The notes under the pieces are model-generated. The model was given only the letters and a program-made list of their open reading frames with translations, had not been told where the DNA came from and searched no databases. DNA of 62,292 nucleotides from Thermoplasma sp. GTDB taxonomy: Archaea > Thermoplasmatota > Thermoplasmata > Thermoplasmatales > Thermoplasmataceae. The translations under genes and the position numbers were made by a program. The stretch is taken from NCBI RefSeq assembly GCF_023256435.1, contig NZ_JAGDXM010000030.1:1-62292 (forward strand), written 5' to 3'. Position 1 is the stretch's first letter, and every line of letters begins with the position of its first letter. Positions 15,828 through 20,977 of the stretch are shown here, in pieces.

Positions 15828-16194
15828 AAGTCGAAGATTCTGATCCACACATCGGTGAATAAATCTCTGCTTGTACATGCATATTACGAACGGGCCATAT
15901 ATTGTGATATCAATAGGCTTGTATTAGGAATGCATCGGCACTATTCCAATAAATATTTCAAAATTTTTTATCGAACATTTCCGCGGGTGAAAGCCTGAAT
16001 GTCCGGTTTCTGAGGTCTGAATTTTTAAATATCATTCTGATCCTAGCTTTTTATTATATAAAACTTTAATATGGAAAGAAATCAGAAAATCGTTTAAATC
16101 GATGAAAATAAATTTTAAATCTTCAGACTGAAATTAGCGCGATCATTCAAAAAAGCTGATAATATATTTATAGCAGGCAAAAATGTGCTTCACA
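15828..16194 (+). promoter_or_regulatory. AT-rich upstream region with the dtdA promoter
   Basis: No gene is visible in this interval. Its right half is very AT-rich with several TATA-like runs. The last one, AATATATTTATA (about 16160-16171), is centred about 26-29 nt before the ATG at 16195, fitting a leaderless dtdA mRNA and favouring that start over the ATG at 16183. Confidence 0.55.
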
Positions 16195-16965
16195 ATGCAT
16201 CTTATAATATCTTCGAGATCAGATCCGGCCAGCCTCAGCATGCTCAGTTATCTCACAGAAAAATACACATTCACAGAAAAAAATGGGGTTATGAACCACG
16301 GTGATTTTGACCTGCTGATAATAGAGGACAGGCACATATTCCATGATATGTCGCTGTCAGGAAGATATGATTATGCCGTGGTTTTATCCAGGCATTCCTC
16401 TGCCGCCAATATAAGGTCGCTGACGGCCCATCCCACGGGAAACTTCGGGCCGACCGCAGATCTTGGTGGCAAACCAAGAACCATAAACATCTCGTGCCCC
16501 GTTGTCATGTCAGGAACTCTTCGAAGGATGATGGAACTGTATTCTGGCGATAAGTTTGAGGTCACATTCGAAGCAACCCATCACGGCCCCCTGTTCGACA
16601 TTCCGAACTATTATGTTGAAATTGGTACGACAGAGAATGAGTGGAACGATCCGGATGCACTGAGGGTCACCGTGGATTCCGTAATGAATCCGGACATTCG
16701 AAGCTACGATAACTTTGTCGGCGTTGGCGGCGGACATTACGCTCCAAAGATAAAGCAGTATTTCAAGGAAAACAGCGTGAATATCGGGCACATAATCTCA
16801 AAACATGATCATGATACACTTGAGCCCTGGGAGATAGATATGGCTGTCAAAAAAACTCCAGGTTGCAAAGGATTCATAATGGACAGGAAGGGCACAAGGG
16901 GATCTGTGAGGGATATGATAAAGAAATATGCAGACGAAAACTCTCTGGAACTCATCTCCATATGA
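16195..16965 (+). CDS. dtdA: D-aminoacyl-tRNA deacylase, archaeal DtdA type
   Basis: Zinc-dependent hydrolase that frees tRNA from wrongly attached D-amino acids. The product starts MHLIISSRSDPAS and contains the family motifs HPTGNFGP, FEATHHGP, IGTTENEW, VGVGGGHYAPK and ISKHD, with the metal-binding histidines. About 256 residues fits archaeal GEK1/DtdA proteins. The gene overlaps tsr3 by ATGA, so the two are coupled. It converges on an operon whose relatives touch D-glutamate chemistry, which may or may not be meaningful. Confidence 0.93.
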   Translation: MHLIISSRSDPASLSMLSYLTEKYTFTEKNGVMNHGDFDLLIIEDRHIFHDMSLSGRYDYAVVLSRHSSAANIRSLTAHPTGNFGPTADLGGKPRTINISCPVVMSGTLRRMMELYSGDKFEVTFEATHHGPLFDIPNYYVEIGTTENEWNDPDALRVTVDSVMNPDIRSYDNFVGVGGGHYAPKIKQYFKENSVNIGHIISKHDHDTLEPWEIDMAVKKTPGCKGFIMDRKGTRGSVRDMIKKYADENSLELISI

Positions 16966-17453
16966 TCCCCATATATTTTATCTATCTGAAACAAGATGAT
17001 CCAAAAAAATCCACCATGAGAAAGCTTGAAAGGTTTGGCCTTGCAAAGCGGATATCCTATGGAAACACCGGATACAAGCTTGTGCTCACCCCATTCACAG
17101 ATGTGCGCATATCGAAGATAGATCGGCCTGCTGCCGAAAGACATGGGATATGCGTTATAGAGGGATCATGGAACAGGGAAGAAACGTTCCGCCATATGCA
17201 ATTTTTGAATGCAAGGAGGCTCCCCAAGCTGCTTGCAGCCAATCCTGTCAACTACGGTAAGCTGGAAAGGCTTTCTTCGATCGAGGCAGTTGCTGCAGCG
17301 CTTTACATCATCGGGTATAAAGACGAGGCATTCGCCGTACTCTCAAAGTACAACTGGGGTATGAACTTCATACAGCTCAACAGAAATCCTCTGGATGAAT
17401 ACAGCGAAGCGGAACCAGAAAAAATTCCAGAGATAGAGGATGCCTATTTCTAA
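16962..17453 (+). CDS. tsr3: rRNA aminocarboxypropyltransferase Tsr3
   Basis: Transfers the aminocarboxypropyl group of SAM to an N1-methylpseudouridine in small-subunit rRNA. The 163-residue product has the DUF367 pattern: IYFIYLKQDDPKKSTMRKLE, then LTPFTDVRIS, VIEGSWN, RRLPKLLAANPVNYGKLERL, SSIEAVAAALYIIGY and the C-terminal FIQLNRNPLDEY. The start ATG at 16962 overlaps the dtdA stop by four bases. An in-frame upstream ATG at 16863 lies inside dtdA and is not needed. Confidence 0.93.
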   Translation: MIPIYFIYLKQDDPKKSTMRKLERFGLAKRISYGNTGYKLVLTPFTDVRISKIDRPAAERHGICVIEGSWNREETFRHMQFLNARRLPKLLAANPVNYGKLERLSSIEAVAAALYIIGYKDEAFAVLSKYNWGMNFIQLNRNPLDEYSEAEPEKIPEIEDAYF

Positions 17454-17457
17454 GAGG

Positions 17458-18882
17458 TCATGAAATTCTCTTCCACTCTCCATTCTCTATCCTATAAACG
17501 CCATTTGAGTACTGATTTATTATATTCATTATGCCGTCTCTGAATTCTTCAGGTACCTTTGAGAATGGCTCCCCCTCTCCAGGAATTATGTGAATGCCTT
17601 CCACATGGCTATCTTCCCTTTTTCCATCGAATACGGAGGCTTTTAGATATTCAAGTTCAACCGGATCCAGGCGCATATTGGCCTCAGCGAGATTCTTCTG
17701 CAGGCTCTTGACAGAATCCTCCTTATAGCCAGCTACCATGGGATCTCCGCCTGCATTGAGTATGAACAGAAGAACACCAAGGCATTTGGTGCACCTACCG
17801 CATGGAACGATTTCTTTACCCTCATAATGGCAGAGATGGCATGACCGCTGTATCCTGAGCAGATCTGGGTATCTCTTCACAAGTACCTTTTCGACCAGAG
17901 TGCCGAATATCGGGTATACAGCAGAAAACACTCTCACTGGAATCCCGTTGTCTCTAAGAAGATCGGATACCGCATCGTTGAACTCATTGGTCTGGTCATA
18001 GACACCGTAGTAATGTTTTATTCCTCTGTAGTTTTCCTGATAGATTGGGTCATCGAATTCGTCTCCAAGTGCTATGTTTCCTATCCTGTATTTTAGGACG
18101 TATGGAAGTGTCGAAAACACATATACAGGAAATATGAACATCTGTATAGGGTAGCTGTCTGCCGTCTTCCTTATCGCATTCTGATCAAGCATCCTCATGT
18201 TTCTGTTCATGAATGAATAGAAGCGGTCAACGTTAGACCATACTTTATGCACGTTTCCGTATCTTTCCCTCATGTGATCGTAGGCCACCTTTGCTGTCTT
18301 CCAGTGGCCGCCGGATTCGTTGAAGAATATTGGAAATACATCCGACCCGATCTCATTGAGCATGCCGAATGTGGTGAGGCTCTCCTTGCCACCCGATGAC
18401 ATTACTGCGACCCTCCTCCTGTCCCCTGTGAAATGGAACCCGTCTGTATAGGTCGTCTCGGCATTCACAACCGTATTTCCAGCTGCGTTTTCAGGTGTTA
18501 TCTCATCGTCGCGCGGCAGGTATTCCTTCCTGAAAAATTCATATCTTCTTCTGACTATGCTGTTAACGAACGTCTCTATATTATTTATTCTGACGAATTC
18601 TTTCAGCTGCCTCAGAAAACTTTCTGATACCGGAAAATTAAGCCTTATCTCCCTGGTGAAATATGCATAGTTGACCACAGGCAGCGATGCAATCATCCCA
18701 GCCAATCGTTCGTCCAGGGGAACATCCTCATCGTAATCAAAGTAGAGATCGAAGGAAAGATCATCTGCCGATATCCTTGCCTTTATCCTCCTGTTGGTCA
18801 CGGATTGCAGGCTGACCTCGATGGAATCAAAATGCCTGACTCTCTCATAATAACGCATTGAACCTTCAATGCTGACGCTCAA
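17458..18882 (-). CDS. PP-loop ATPase-like protein with C-terminal cysteine cluster (possible MurL-like epimerase)
   Basis: A 474-residue protein. An N-terminal domain of about 150 residues is followed by a PP-loop, VAVMSSGGKESLTT (SGGKES at about 163-168, where most PP-loop enzymes have SGGxDS), then IFFNESGGHW. A C-terminal cluster of Cys348, Cys351, Cys361, Cys364 and Cys367 (CHLCHYEGKEIVPCGRCTKC) may bind metal. From memory it resembles MurL, an enzyme that inverts L-glutamate on a peptidoglycan precursor, but Thermoplasma has no murein and I hold this loosely. A tRNA or small-molecule adenylating enzyme is the alternative. It is last in a three-gene operon, 27 nt after the DUF1611 gene. 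Confidence 0.65.
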   Translation of the reverse strand: MSVSIEGSMRYYERVRHFDSIEVSLQSVTNRRIKARISADDLSFDLYFDYDEDVPLDERLAGMIASLPVVNYAYFTREIRLNFPVSESFLRQLKEFVRINNIETFVNSIVRRRYEFFRKEYLPRDDEITPENAAGNTVVNAETTYTDGFHFTGDRRRVAVMSSGGKESLTTFGMLNEIGSDVFPIFFNESGGHWKTAKVAYDHMRERYGNVHKVWSNVDRFYSFMNRNMRMLDQNAIRKTADSYPIQMFIFPVYVFSTLPYVLKYRIGNIALGDEFDDPIYQENYRGIKHYYGVYDQTNEFNDAVSDLLRDNGIPVRVFSAVYPIFGTLVEKVLVKRYPDLLRIQRSCHLCHYEGKEIVPCGRCTKCLGVLLFILNAGGDPMVAGYKEDSVKSLQKNLAEANMRLDPVELEYLKASVFDGKREDSHVEGIHIIPGEGEPFSKVPEEFRDGIMNIINQYSNGVYRIENGEWKRIS

Positions 18883-18909
18883 AATATCACCAAAAATTTA
18901 AAAAAATGT

Positions 18910-19944
18910 TCAGATCTTATAGCTGTCTATCTCTCTAGTCACCGAAGATAGCCTCTGCAGCGGGTCAAAGACAGGTATGCCGAATTTTGCCTGAAGCCTT
19001 GACTTCTCTTCCTTTATCATCGATTCATCCATATTTTCGGTGTTGAGAGCTATGGCTATCACGCGCTTGTTGGAAAGAAGCTCCAGTATATTTATGAACT
19101 TCTCCAGCGGTGGGATCTCATAGCCAGGAAAACCGTCGAAATACTTCCTCATGGGCGCATGCTGTAGTATGATCGCGTCCGGCCTGGTGGCGCCTATGAT
19201 CTCGAAGCTTCCAGGATAGGCTGGATGCAGAACGGATCCCTGCCCCTCTATGAACATGTAATCAGGCCTTTCGACATCCCATGCTTCATAGGTTACAGAT
19301 TCAAGGGCACCAGCTACGAAGTCGTTCACTATAGCATCTATGACGACCGTGTACTTGAATCCCTGCATCCATGAGGTCTGTCCAGTACCGATCATTACGC
19401 TCTTCTTGCCTATGGCCTTCATAGCGCGGTTCAGGTATATAGCCGTCGTGCGTTTTCCAATTGCGCTGTCCGTTCCAAGCACAGCTATCTTCTTTGCCTT
19501 GACCTTCTCTATGTTTCCAGTGAAGAAGTATTTCCTCTCCTTGAACAGTTTTCTGACGTCCGTGATCTTTGATCCAGTGCGTTTGGCCAGCTTTGAGAAT
19601 TCAGGATCGTCGCTTATGAAGTCATGAAGACCGCTGACTATGTTCATACCATGGTTTATAGCAGTCTTTATGTATGGGCGGTAGCTGTCCGGAAGAACTC
19701 CACCATCTGATGCGATACCAACTATCAAAGTCTCTGCACCACCCCTTAGACCCTCCTCAACGCCAGAGATTATGGGTATCCCTGCATATCTGTGCATCAG
19801 CACATTGCCGGCATCCTGGCCGGCAAGCCTGGAGTCTATCACCGATAGTATCTTGTAGCGCTTGCTGTATCTCACCAGACCATTTGCTGTCTTTCCGTAT
19901 GTAGTTCCAAAAACACCTTCAGATAGAATTGTTGCATTTTCCAT
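18910..19944 (-). CDS. DUF1611 family P-loop protein (DgcN-like)
   Basis: A 344-residue two-domain protein. The N-terminal Rossmann-like part (TLIVGIASDGGVLP near residue 73) is followed by a C-terminal P-loop domain with VLGTDSAIGKRTTA (residues 155-168), IGTGQTSWMQG, VIDAIVNDFVAGA and FIEGQGSVLHPAYPG, which are the family's conserved blocks. Members are often beside dipeptide epimerases, and a bacterial relative, DgcN, has been reported to N-acetylate D-glutamate. The reaction in Thermoplasma is unknown. Its ATG overlaps the PLP gene's stop by one base (TAATG), so translation is coupled. Confidence 0.85.
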   Translation of the reverse strand: MENATILSEGVFGTTYGKTANGLVRYSKRYKILSVIDSRLAGQDAGNVLMHRYAGIPIISGVEEGLRGGAETLIVGIASDGGVLPDSYRPYIKTAINHGMNIVSGLHDFISDDPEFSKLAKRTGSKITDVRKLFKERKYFFTGNIEKVKAKKIAVLGTDSAIGKRTTAIYLNRAMKAIGKKSVMIGTGQTSWMQGFKYTVVIDAIVNDFVAGALESVTYEAWDVERPDYMFIEGQGSVLHPAYPGSFEIIGATRPDAIILQHAPMRKYFDGFPGYEIPPLEKFINILELLSNKRVIAIALNTENMDESMIKEEKSRLQAKFGIPVFDPLQRLSSVTREIDSYKI

Positions 19945-20894
19945 TATATCTGCCTCCCTGTTATGACAGAGACAACAGTTTCATCAGACTTGATCCTGAT
20001 ATGATTTATCGCTGCGACAGCTGAAGCTGATGCTGGCAGCGGATTCAAACCCTCCACCCTATAGATCAGGTTGGAGTAGTAGATCATCTCCTCATCGCTA
20101 ACGTACATGGCCCTTCCATGCGTCTCCCTTATGGCTTTGAGCGCGTCCTGCCCATCGAAGGACCTGTAGGAAACGAGAGGCTCATTTACAGCCGTCTCTT
20201 TTATTTCATCCGGGTTCAGATCGATGACTCTGCTGTATCCGCGCCTCCATGAATCGACTATCGGATTCCCTCCAGATGTGCTTACGCCAACCATCCTCGG
20301 CAGATGATCGATCACGCCTTCCTCGTACATCCTCCTGAAGCCATGGTAAATGCCGGCCAGTGTGGTACCATTCCCAACAGGAACTATGACATAAGATGGA
20401 ACTCTGAGCAGTGCCTCATAGATCTCGAAGGCTATTGTGGCATACATCATCTTATCTATGGCAGAATTTACAGATCCAGGGCTAGCATCATATAGCCCAT
20501 TGTCCCTTGAGAAATCCCTGACGTAGTCAACGGTTTCCTCATATTTTCCGTCATAGTAGATGATCTCCGCATGTTCAGCCTCCATGAAGTCTGTTCTGTC
20601 ATGAGAATAGGATTTCGGTATACCAATGTAAGATTTCACTCCATACCTGTGAGCAAAATAGGCAATGGACGCACCGTAGTTACCGCAGGTACCAACGGCT
20701 ATTCCATTGTATCCTCCTCTCATGGCATTTATAACATGCGCCTCAGAGATGCGATCTTTCTGAGTTCCTGTTGCGTTTGCTCCTTCGAACTTCAAAAAAA
20801 GGTTGTTCAAATGGAGCTCATTCCCAAGTGCATACGCTTTTATTGTGGGCGTACGCCCCGGGGGTTTTGCCTCAACGTTTAGCAGTTCTTCCAT
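19944..20894 (-). CDS. PLP-dependent lyase/synthase, threonine synthase-like (fold type II)
   Basis: A 316-residue fold-type II PLP enzyme. The PLP lysine is Lys46 in NATGTQKDRISEA. The phosphate-binding loop is GTCGNYGASIAYFA, PVGNGTTLAGIYHGF is the second glycine-rich loop, and SASAVAAI follows near the C-terminus. It is shorter than classical threonine synthase and lacks that enzyme's N-terminal extension and zinc site. It could therefore be a dehydratase, a racemase-type enzyme or a beta-replacement synthase. It is the first gene of an operon with the DUF1611 and PP-loop genes, and its substrate is probably made or used by them. Confidence 0.85.
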   Translation of the reverse strand: MEELLNVEAKPPGRTPTIKAYALGNELHLNNLFLKFEGANATGTQKDRISEAHVINAMRGGYNGIAVGTCGNYGASIAYFAHRYGVKSYIGIPKSYSHDRTDFMEAEHAEIIYYDGKYEETVDYVRDFSRDNGLYDASPGSVNSAIDKMMYATIAFEIYEALLRVPSYVIVPVGNGTTLAGIYHGFRRMYEEGVIDHLPRMVGVSTSGGNPIVDSWRRGYSRVIDLNPDEIKETAVNEPLVSYRSFDGQDALKAIRETHGRAMYVSDEEMIYYSNLIYRVEGLNPLPASASAVAAINHIRIKSDETVVSVITGRQI

Positions 20895-20901
20895 TCCAAT
20901 C

Positions 20902-20977
20902 TACCAGTCTTGAAACTGGTACGACAAGTTAATGCAATACAGTATTAAAATTTTTATCTACGAAGTTCGAAATTTCG
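20902..20977 (-). promoter_or_regulatory. Promoter of the PLP-DUF1611-PP-loop operon with two inverted repeats
   Basis: On the minus strand the AT-rich box AAAAATTTTAATA (about 20943-20956) should place the RNA start near 20920. A perfect 7-bp inverted repeat TACCAGT/ACTGGTA with a 6-nt spacer (20902-20921) sits at that start, 8-27 nt before the ATG. A second palindrome, CGAAATTTCG (20968-20977), lies just upstream of the TATA box. The arrangement suggests regulated expression, by a repressor at the start site or by an RNA hairpin. Confidence 0.5.

Follow-up and report, generated by a model that had tools for sequence, protein, structure and literature searches.

A conserved three-gene operon with a MurL-like PP-loop protein in wall-less Thermoplasma and its possible role in ATP-driven stereo-inversion

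The stretch of DNA considered here, hereafter called the window, spans positions 1 to 62,292 (62,292 nucleotides) of contig NZ_JAGDXM010000030.1 (assembly GCF_023256435.1) and comes from a Thermoplasma species, a wall-less and acid-loving archaeon with a genome of 1.55 Mb. Its minus strand carries an operon of three genes encoding, in this order, a pyridoxal phosphate (PLP) enzyme (19944..20894), a DUF1611 protein (18910..19944) and a PP-loop protein (17458..18882). This operon is real and widely conserved, and it is undescribed in the literature that we searched, in which no relevant account of DUF1611 or MurL in archaea was found. The PP-loop protein is a member of the QueC superfamily and, judging from profile comparisons, its catalytic region is specifically similar to that of the epimerase MurL. 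The explanation that we prefer, with a confidence somewhat short of even, is that the operon would carry out the ATP-dependent epimerisation of an amino acid or acyl-amino acid, most likely a glutamate-like one, with the DUF1611 protein acting as acyltransferase.

The coordinates, strand and order of the three genes were re-read in the window and agree with those of a first-pass annotation of this DNA, as does the one-base overlap (TAATG) between the PLP and DUF1611 genes. The gap of 27 nt that it gave between the DUF1611 and PP-loop genes is also right, provided that the latter begins with the TTG at 18882. If translation began instead at the in-frame ATG 24 nt inward (18858), the gap would be 51 nt; the TTG start seems plausible because two Thermoplasma relatives (L003 and L004) lack an ATG at the equivalent position. 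There is one TATA-like stretch upstream of the PLP gene, and a putative promoter common to all three genes is plausible.

We searched 300 genomes of the class Thermoplasmata, whose families are labelled f1 (that of the window), f2, f3 and so on, and found the PP-loop gene in 61 of them. The genomes of f1 (44), f4 (eight) and f15 (five) all have it, and four of f3 do. Three weak matches in f2 (E<1e-3) were rejected; the sole locus read among them, in G059, has QueC at the match coordinates, and f2 is therefore taken to be without the gene. From a scan of GTDB contigs, 80 of 132 PP-loop relatives were kept, which include records of Thermoplasmata, Bathyarchaeia, Korarchaeia and Methanomassiliicoccales-like archaea as well as one metagenome-assembled genome (MAG) labelled Myxococcales. 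In 74 of these 80 relatives the gene immediately preceding the PP-loop gene, in the same orientation, is DUF1611; the complete order PLP-DUF1611-PP-loop is found in 60, which span Thermoplasmata, Bathyarchaeia and Korarchaeia, some of the other 20 being contig ends. Because this order is kept in 60 of 80 independently fetched relatives, the arrangement is not due to chance; the first-pass annotation had staked its interpretation on linkage beyond this genome, and the genes do stay together widely. Within Thermoplasma, DUF1611 appears to be under unusually strong constraint, being 98% identical between genomes as compared with 77% for the PP-loop protein and ~82-87% for the neighbouring dtdA (see below). 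The Myxococcales-labelled MAG contains a PP-loop relative (L130:6941-8434, 38% identical) without DUF1611 or PLP neighbours, probably the result of gene transfer or of a binning error. The viral contigs and plasmids searched yielded no relative of the PP-loop protein, nor did the viral contigs yield any of MurL.

The PP-loop protein contains the loop SSGGKES and the metal site RSCHxC...PCGxCxKC. In the alignment of 19 relatives the E of the loop is nearly invariant (one relative has D) and the cysteines C348, C351, C361, C364 and C367 are all invariant. The corresponding motifs of the QueC family are SGGxDS and C(x)8CxxCxxC (PMC13329287), to be compared with SGGKES and with the spacing C351-x9-C361-x2-C364-x2-C367 plus C348. 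Both features had previously been put forward as novel; the loop is a mild D-to-E variant of SGGxDS and adds little novelty. The protein has no match over cut-off in Pfam, NCBIfam, PHROGs or PADLOC and no relative in the PDB by sequence search, while its AlphaFold2 model is confident (mean predicted local distance difference test score 90.9, predicted template modelling score 0.90).

The proposed kinship with MurL stands as a distant one. The NCBIfam model of MurL (NF041275) matches three of the 19 members, with a best E of 6e-4, and comparison of profiles built from 98 archaeal PP-loop sequences and four MurL sequences (hhalign) gives a score of 46.2 and an E of 4.5e-5 over 188 columns. The MurL set (L138-L141) consists of the annotated murL of a Xanthomonas sacchari plasmid (L138), which sits before murD, and three homologues from Pseudonocardia; the two of these that were tested each score >320 bits with the MurL model. 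All comparisons use these public sequences. The blocks shared with MurL are collinear and comprise the PP-loop, GDEFDDP/SNE, HxxxxxDQ/HQW, SAVYPITG/SLLRPLSE and SC...CxxCxKC. In the controls, 60 column shuffles reached at most 24.8 and the reversed MurL profile 18.6. When the PP-loop was excised, MurL still scored 34.8 over 102 columns (shuffle maximum 18.5) and QueC aligned over the 18 columns of the cysteine metal site only. It is because MurL aligns collinearly without the PP-loop, while QueC then aligns at the cysteines alone, that we consider the catalytic region to be specifically MurL-like. The MurL proteins of Xanthomonas, Micromonospora and Salinispora are similar in length to the PP-loop protein (~450-470 aa) and a loop of the form GGK[DE]S, and both proteins contain collinear E, Q and SxxxxP motifs followed by an S-C...C-x2-C-x-K-C metal site. 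Unlike MurL, the PP-loop protein has an extra fifth invariant cysteine (C351), no murD2 neighbour and no wall to serve; indeed, no Mur ligase was found among the annotated or homology-labelled neighbours of its gene.

MurL inverts glutamate, at the cost of ATP, in the building of some bacterial walls. To our knowledge, it was described as the first epimerase to spend ATP and is known solely from wall synthesis in a few bacteria. It is reported to use one ATP, to form AMP and to work from L to D only, by a proposed mechanism of adenylation of the alpha-carboxylate (PMC8788868).

The second protein of the operon has a Rossmann-like N domain and a P-loop C domain, matched over cut-off by PF07755 (219 bits, 5.7e-65) and PF17396 (104 bits, 6.7e-30), with relatives of known structure in PDB entries 2g0t, 2obn and 7xrj. 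It belongs to the DgcN family, in line with the first-pass annotation. DgcN, a D-glutamate N-acetyltransferase that works with the N-acetyl-D-Glu racemase DgcA, resembles it in having the DUF1611 fold over the whole length and an epimerase partner nearby; the difference is that the partner here is the MurL-like PP-loop protein, with a PLP enzyme in addition. In bacteria, dgcN is described as central to the irreversible racemisation of acidic D-amino acids, a catabolic pathway that runs from D to L (PMC12363236). DUF1611 is distributed more widely than the triplet (145 of the 300 genomes), and archaeal neighbourhoods linking it with epimerases, which had likewise been anticipated, do exist. In f10, a second DUF1611 copy has an MR_MLE gene, closest to the L-Ala-D/L-Glu epimerase and DgcA models, within ~4 kb at 11 of 14 loci; one locus of f18 shows DUF1611 adjoining an MR_MLE gene, and at one of f7 (L159:4300-6442) a gene resembling ornithine racemase (NF040742, 417 bits; cut-off 480) comes after DUF1611. 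In L132, L133 and L137 the operon itself is accompanied by MR_MLE, M14 peptidase and GNAT genes. Unrelated epimerase families therefore recur beside DUF1611 in Thermoplasmata, and the MurL-like protein fits this slot as well.

The PLP enzyme is of fold type II and threonine-synthase-like (Pfam PALP 1.2e-60; NCBIfam PRK06381, NF004996, 495 bits against a cut-off of 266), and has the catalytic KDR lysine in common with threonine synthase. Unlike the housekeeping enzyme it is an operon-bound paralogue: the genome holds four further PALP genes, one of which (G000:C5) encodes a threonine synthase in its own right (NF005035, 532 bits), and this other copy rules out a housekeeping role for the operon enzyme. 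Threonine synthase grips the phosphate of its substrate partly through two residues, the T of STGNT and the R of NPxR. When the PLP protein is aligned with threonine synthases of known structure, Y and I, respectively, are seen at these positions, and on account of these replacements threonine synthesis by it looks doubtful.

From these elements we infer a chemistry, an order of steps, a substrate and a direction for the pathway. The PP-loop protein would adenylate the alpha-carboxylate with ATP, rendering the alpha proton labile, and would then epimerise the centre one way and release AMP by hydrolysing the adenylate, in line with the mechanism proposed for MurL. The DUF1611 protein would acylate the amino group of either the substrate or the product, and the PLP enzyme would supply or consume the amino acid. 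An extension of this scheme, which we deem possible but not very likely, is that a one-way MurL-type epimerase pathway, equipped with an N-acyltransferase resembling DgcN and a PLP enzyme of its own, might be part of the core metabolism of wall-less archaea, making a D-metabolite or polymer unit new to archaea; the placement in core metabolism derives from the presence of a MurL relative in every sampled f1 genome, tied to a D-glutamate-acetyltransferase-like protein. If this were true, MurL would be the wall-building offshoot of a wider and older epimerase family, MurL-type ATP chemistry would belong to archaeal core metabolism, and testable functions could be assigned both to archaeal DUF1611 and to a PLP enzyme whose current annotation is threonine synthase.

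Several observations weigh against the epimerase interpretation. The similarity to MurL is remote: the PP-loop protein of the window has no match to NF041275 at E 0.1, far from the cut-off of 700 bits, the search of its own genome and six relatives with this model returned a single match (E 0.055), and the N-terminal domain aligned with the MurL profile scores 11.2 against a shuffle mean of 11.0, so that homology is undetectable there. Foldseek comparison of the model with the PDB ranks QatC best (8e-6, whole length) and QueC next (2e-4), other PP-loop enzymes including TtuA and NcsA being weaker; since no MurL structure was found in the PDB by sequence search, this fold comparison cannot choose between MurL and a QueC-type enzyme. 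The DUF1611 protein reaches 191 bits with the DgcN model NF041892, below the cut-off of 480, and DUF1611 also occurs without any epimerase neighbour or next to the gene for the archaeal phosphopantothenate synthetase PPS (a 4-phosphopantoate-beta-alanine ligase), the latter in at least 26 genomes of f25, f17 and f26. The scheme does not account for the PLP enzyme, and in f3 and some members of f4 its gene does not adjoin the DUF1611 and PP-loop genes, which stand as a pair; f4 and one f3 genome then encode a PLP relative elsewhere.

The main rival, which we regard as unlikely though well worth weighing, holds that the PP-loop protein acts as a ligase or amidotransferase of the QueC kind: a carboxylate would be adenylated and passed to an amine (ammonia, an amino acid or the N-terminus of a protein), as Cap9 does and QatC is proposed to do, and the operon would make an amide or conjugate of what the PLP and DUF1611 proteins produce. 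The fold ranking favours it, as do the metal-site and loop motifs of the QueC family (PMC13329287) and weak matches of the PADLOC QueC model to four of the 19 members (best E 0.017); QueC, QatC and Cap9 have the fold core, the PP-loop and the zinc-type cysteine motif in common with our protein. However, sequence likeness to these enzymes is confined to two motifs, with nothing aligned between them in the QueC profile, and scores stay below the family cut-offs, PF06508 (QueC) matching one of the 19 members at E 0.057. Moreover, neither queD, queE or qat genes nor other 7-deazaguanine genes were seen beside the PP-loop gene in the neighbourhoods inspected; the Qat defence profile of PADLOC has no match, and qatA/B/D-like neighbours are lacking.

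It is improbable, in our judgement, that the operon serves a degradation route, in which the PLP enzyme would be a threonine-synthase-like lyase or racemase acting on peptide-derived D- or beta-substituted amino acids, DUF1611 would N-acetylate D-residues and the PP-loop protein would return them to L. This would agree with the catabolic direction of the bacterial DgcN pathway (PMC12363236) and with the genes for GNAT, M14 carboxypeptidase and MR_MLE proteins that lie convergently after the triplet, or after its PP-loop gene, in L132, L133 and L137, the last two kinds being those that bear on degradation; yet MurL runs from L to D only, and both the presence of the PP-loop gene in all f1 genomes, small ones included, and the conservation of DUF1611 better fit core biosynthesis. 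Quite improbable, too, is a function in coenzyme A supply, with the PP-loop protein as an AMP-forming, pantothenate-type synthetase replacing PPS and the other two proteins making or delivering beta-alanine. The DUF1611-PPS neighbourhoods point that way, as does the lack of PPS (PF02006) in 42 of the 44 f1 genomes, all of which have the PP-loop gene. Nevertheless, PPS is retained by 18 of the 61 genomes that have the PP-loop gene (two of f1, three of f3 and every genome of f4 and f15, eight and five respectively), and because they carry both genes a general replacement of PPS is disfavoured, less so within f1. Least credible is a sulfurtransferase or thiolase modifying tRNA or a cofactor, set in a merely loose neighbourhood: the weak fold matches with TtuA and NcsA, the cysteine-rich site and the nearby translation genes dtdA and Tsr3 would suit it, but no RNA-binding domain is matched, the DUF1611 partner is constant, and no tRNA-modification family is hit over cut-off, a clear hit of this kind being what the first-pass annotation had named as fatal to its interpretation.

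The operon is preceded by a conserved leader element (20896..20928, minus strand) in which TACCAGT-N6-ACTGGTA (20902-20921) forms a perfect inverted repeat, 7 nt ahead of the start codon of the PLP gene. The block is kept in five Thermoplasma genomes (that of the window and those of L032, L033, L034 and L035), the adjacent promoter being changed in the most distant of them. A regulon was considered and rejected, the exact repeat being present solely at this operon in each of the five genomes. In other genera, short hairpins unlike this one occupy the equivalent position (11 of 62 at p<=0.05, with ~3 expected), some of which are affected by the choice of start codon. The leader is a candidate operator, or else a candidate cis-regulatory RNA in the form of a hairpin controlling translation.

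Two plus-strand genes outside the operon converge on it, namely dtdA for D-aminoacyl-tRNA deacylase (16183..16965, starting with the ATG at 16183 or 16195; PF04414 3.1e-63; NF003072, 301 bits against a cut-off of 272) and the gene for the rRNA aminocarboxypropyltransferase Tsr3/DUF367 (16962..17453; PF04034 1.9e-39; NF002621, 182 bits, cut-off 152). The first-pass annotation had suggested that dtdA guards translation against D-amino acids. In 40 of the 80 relatives, which all have the triplet and belong to f1 genera other than Thermoplasma, dtdA precedes the PLP gene in the same orientation; but it is separated by a gap that holds the promoter region of the operon, and it does not accompany the triplet in the loci of f4, f15, Bathyarchaeia and Korarchaeia inspected. 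Since dtdA is a housekeeping gene and the association is confined to the GTDB family of the window among the loci inspected, its link to a D-amino-acid role is weak. As for other racemases, the genome of the window has no member of the Asp/Glu racemase family, and hence a glutamate racemase would not cover the proposed function; it has six MR_MLE-family matches, and such an enzyme could. It also encodes one protein of alanine-racemase fold, absent from two other Thermoplasma genomes.

Further neighbours of DUF1611 deserve mention. The second f10 copy adjoins an epimerase-like MR_MLE gene together with a GHMP-kinase-like gene at L157:5649-8727, L158:2179-5348, L172-L175 and L179-L183, while another f10 copy sits in a PLP-DUF1611-GNAT operon. 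GNAT genes lie close by as well (L143:2478-4983, L144:5037-7502, L146:5402-7810, L136:4951-8897): they follow PLP-DUF1611 in f10 and the full triplet in Korarchaeia, and convergent ones stand beside the triplet in Bathyarchaeia loci. At L149:6276-8098 and L154:5307-7129 the DUF1611 and PPS genes overlap, with pyrG close by, and a link of DUF1611 to coenzyme A synthesis is possible. Most Thermoplasmata outside f1 carry PPS, although Thermoplasma, Ferroplasma and their allies, in the 42 f1 genomes mentioned above, do not; this family may have an unusual pantothenate route or dependence.

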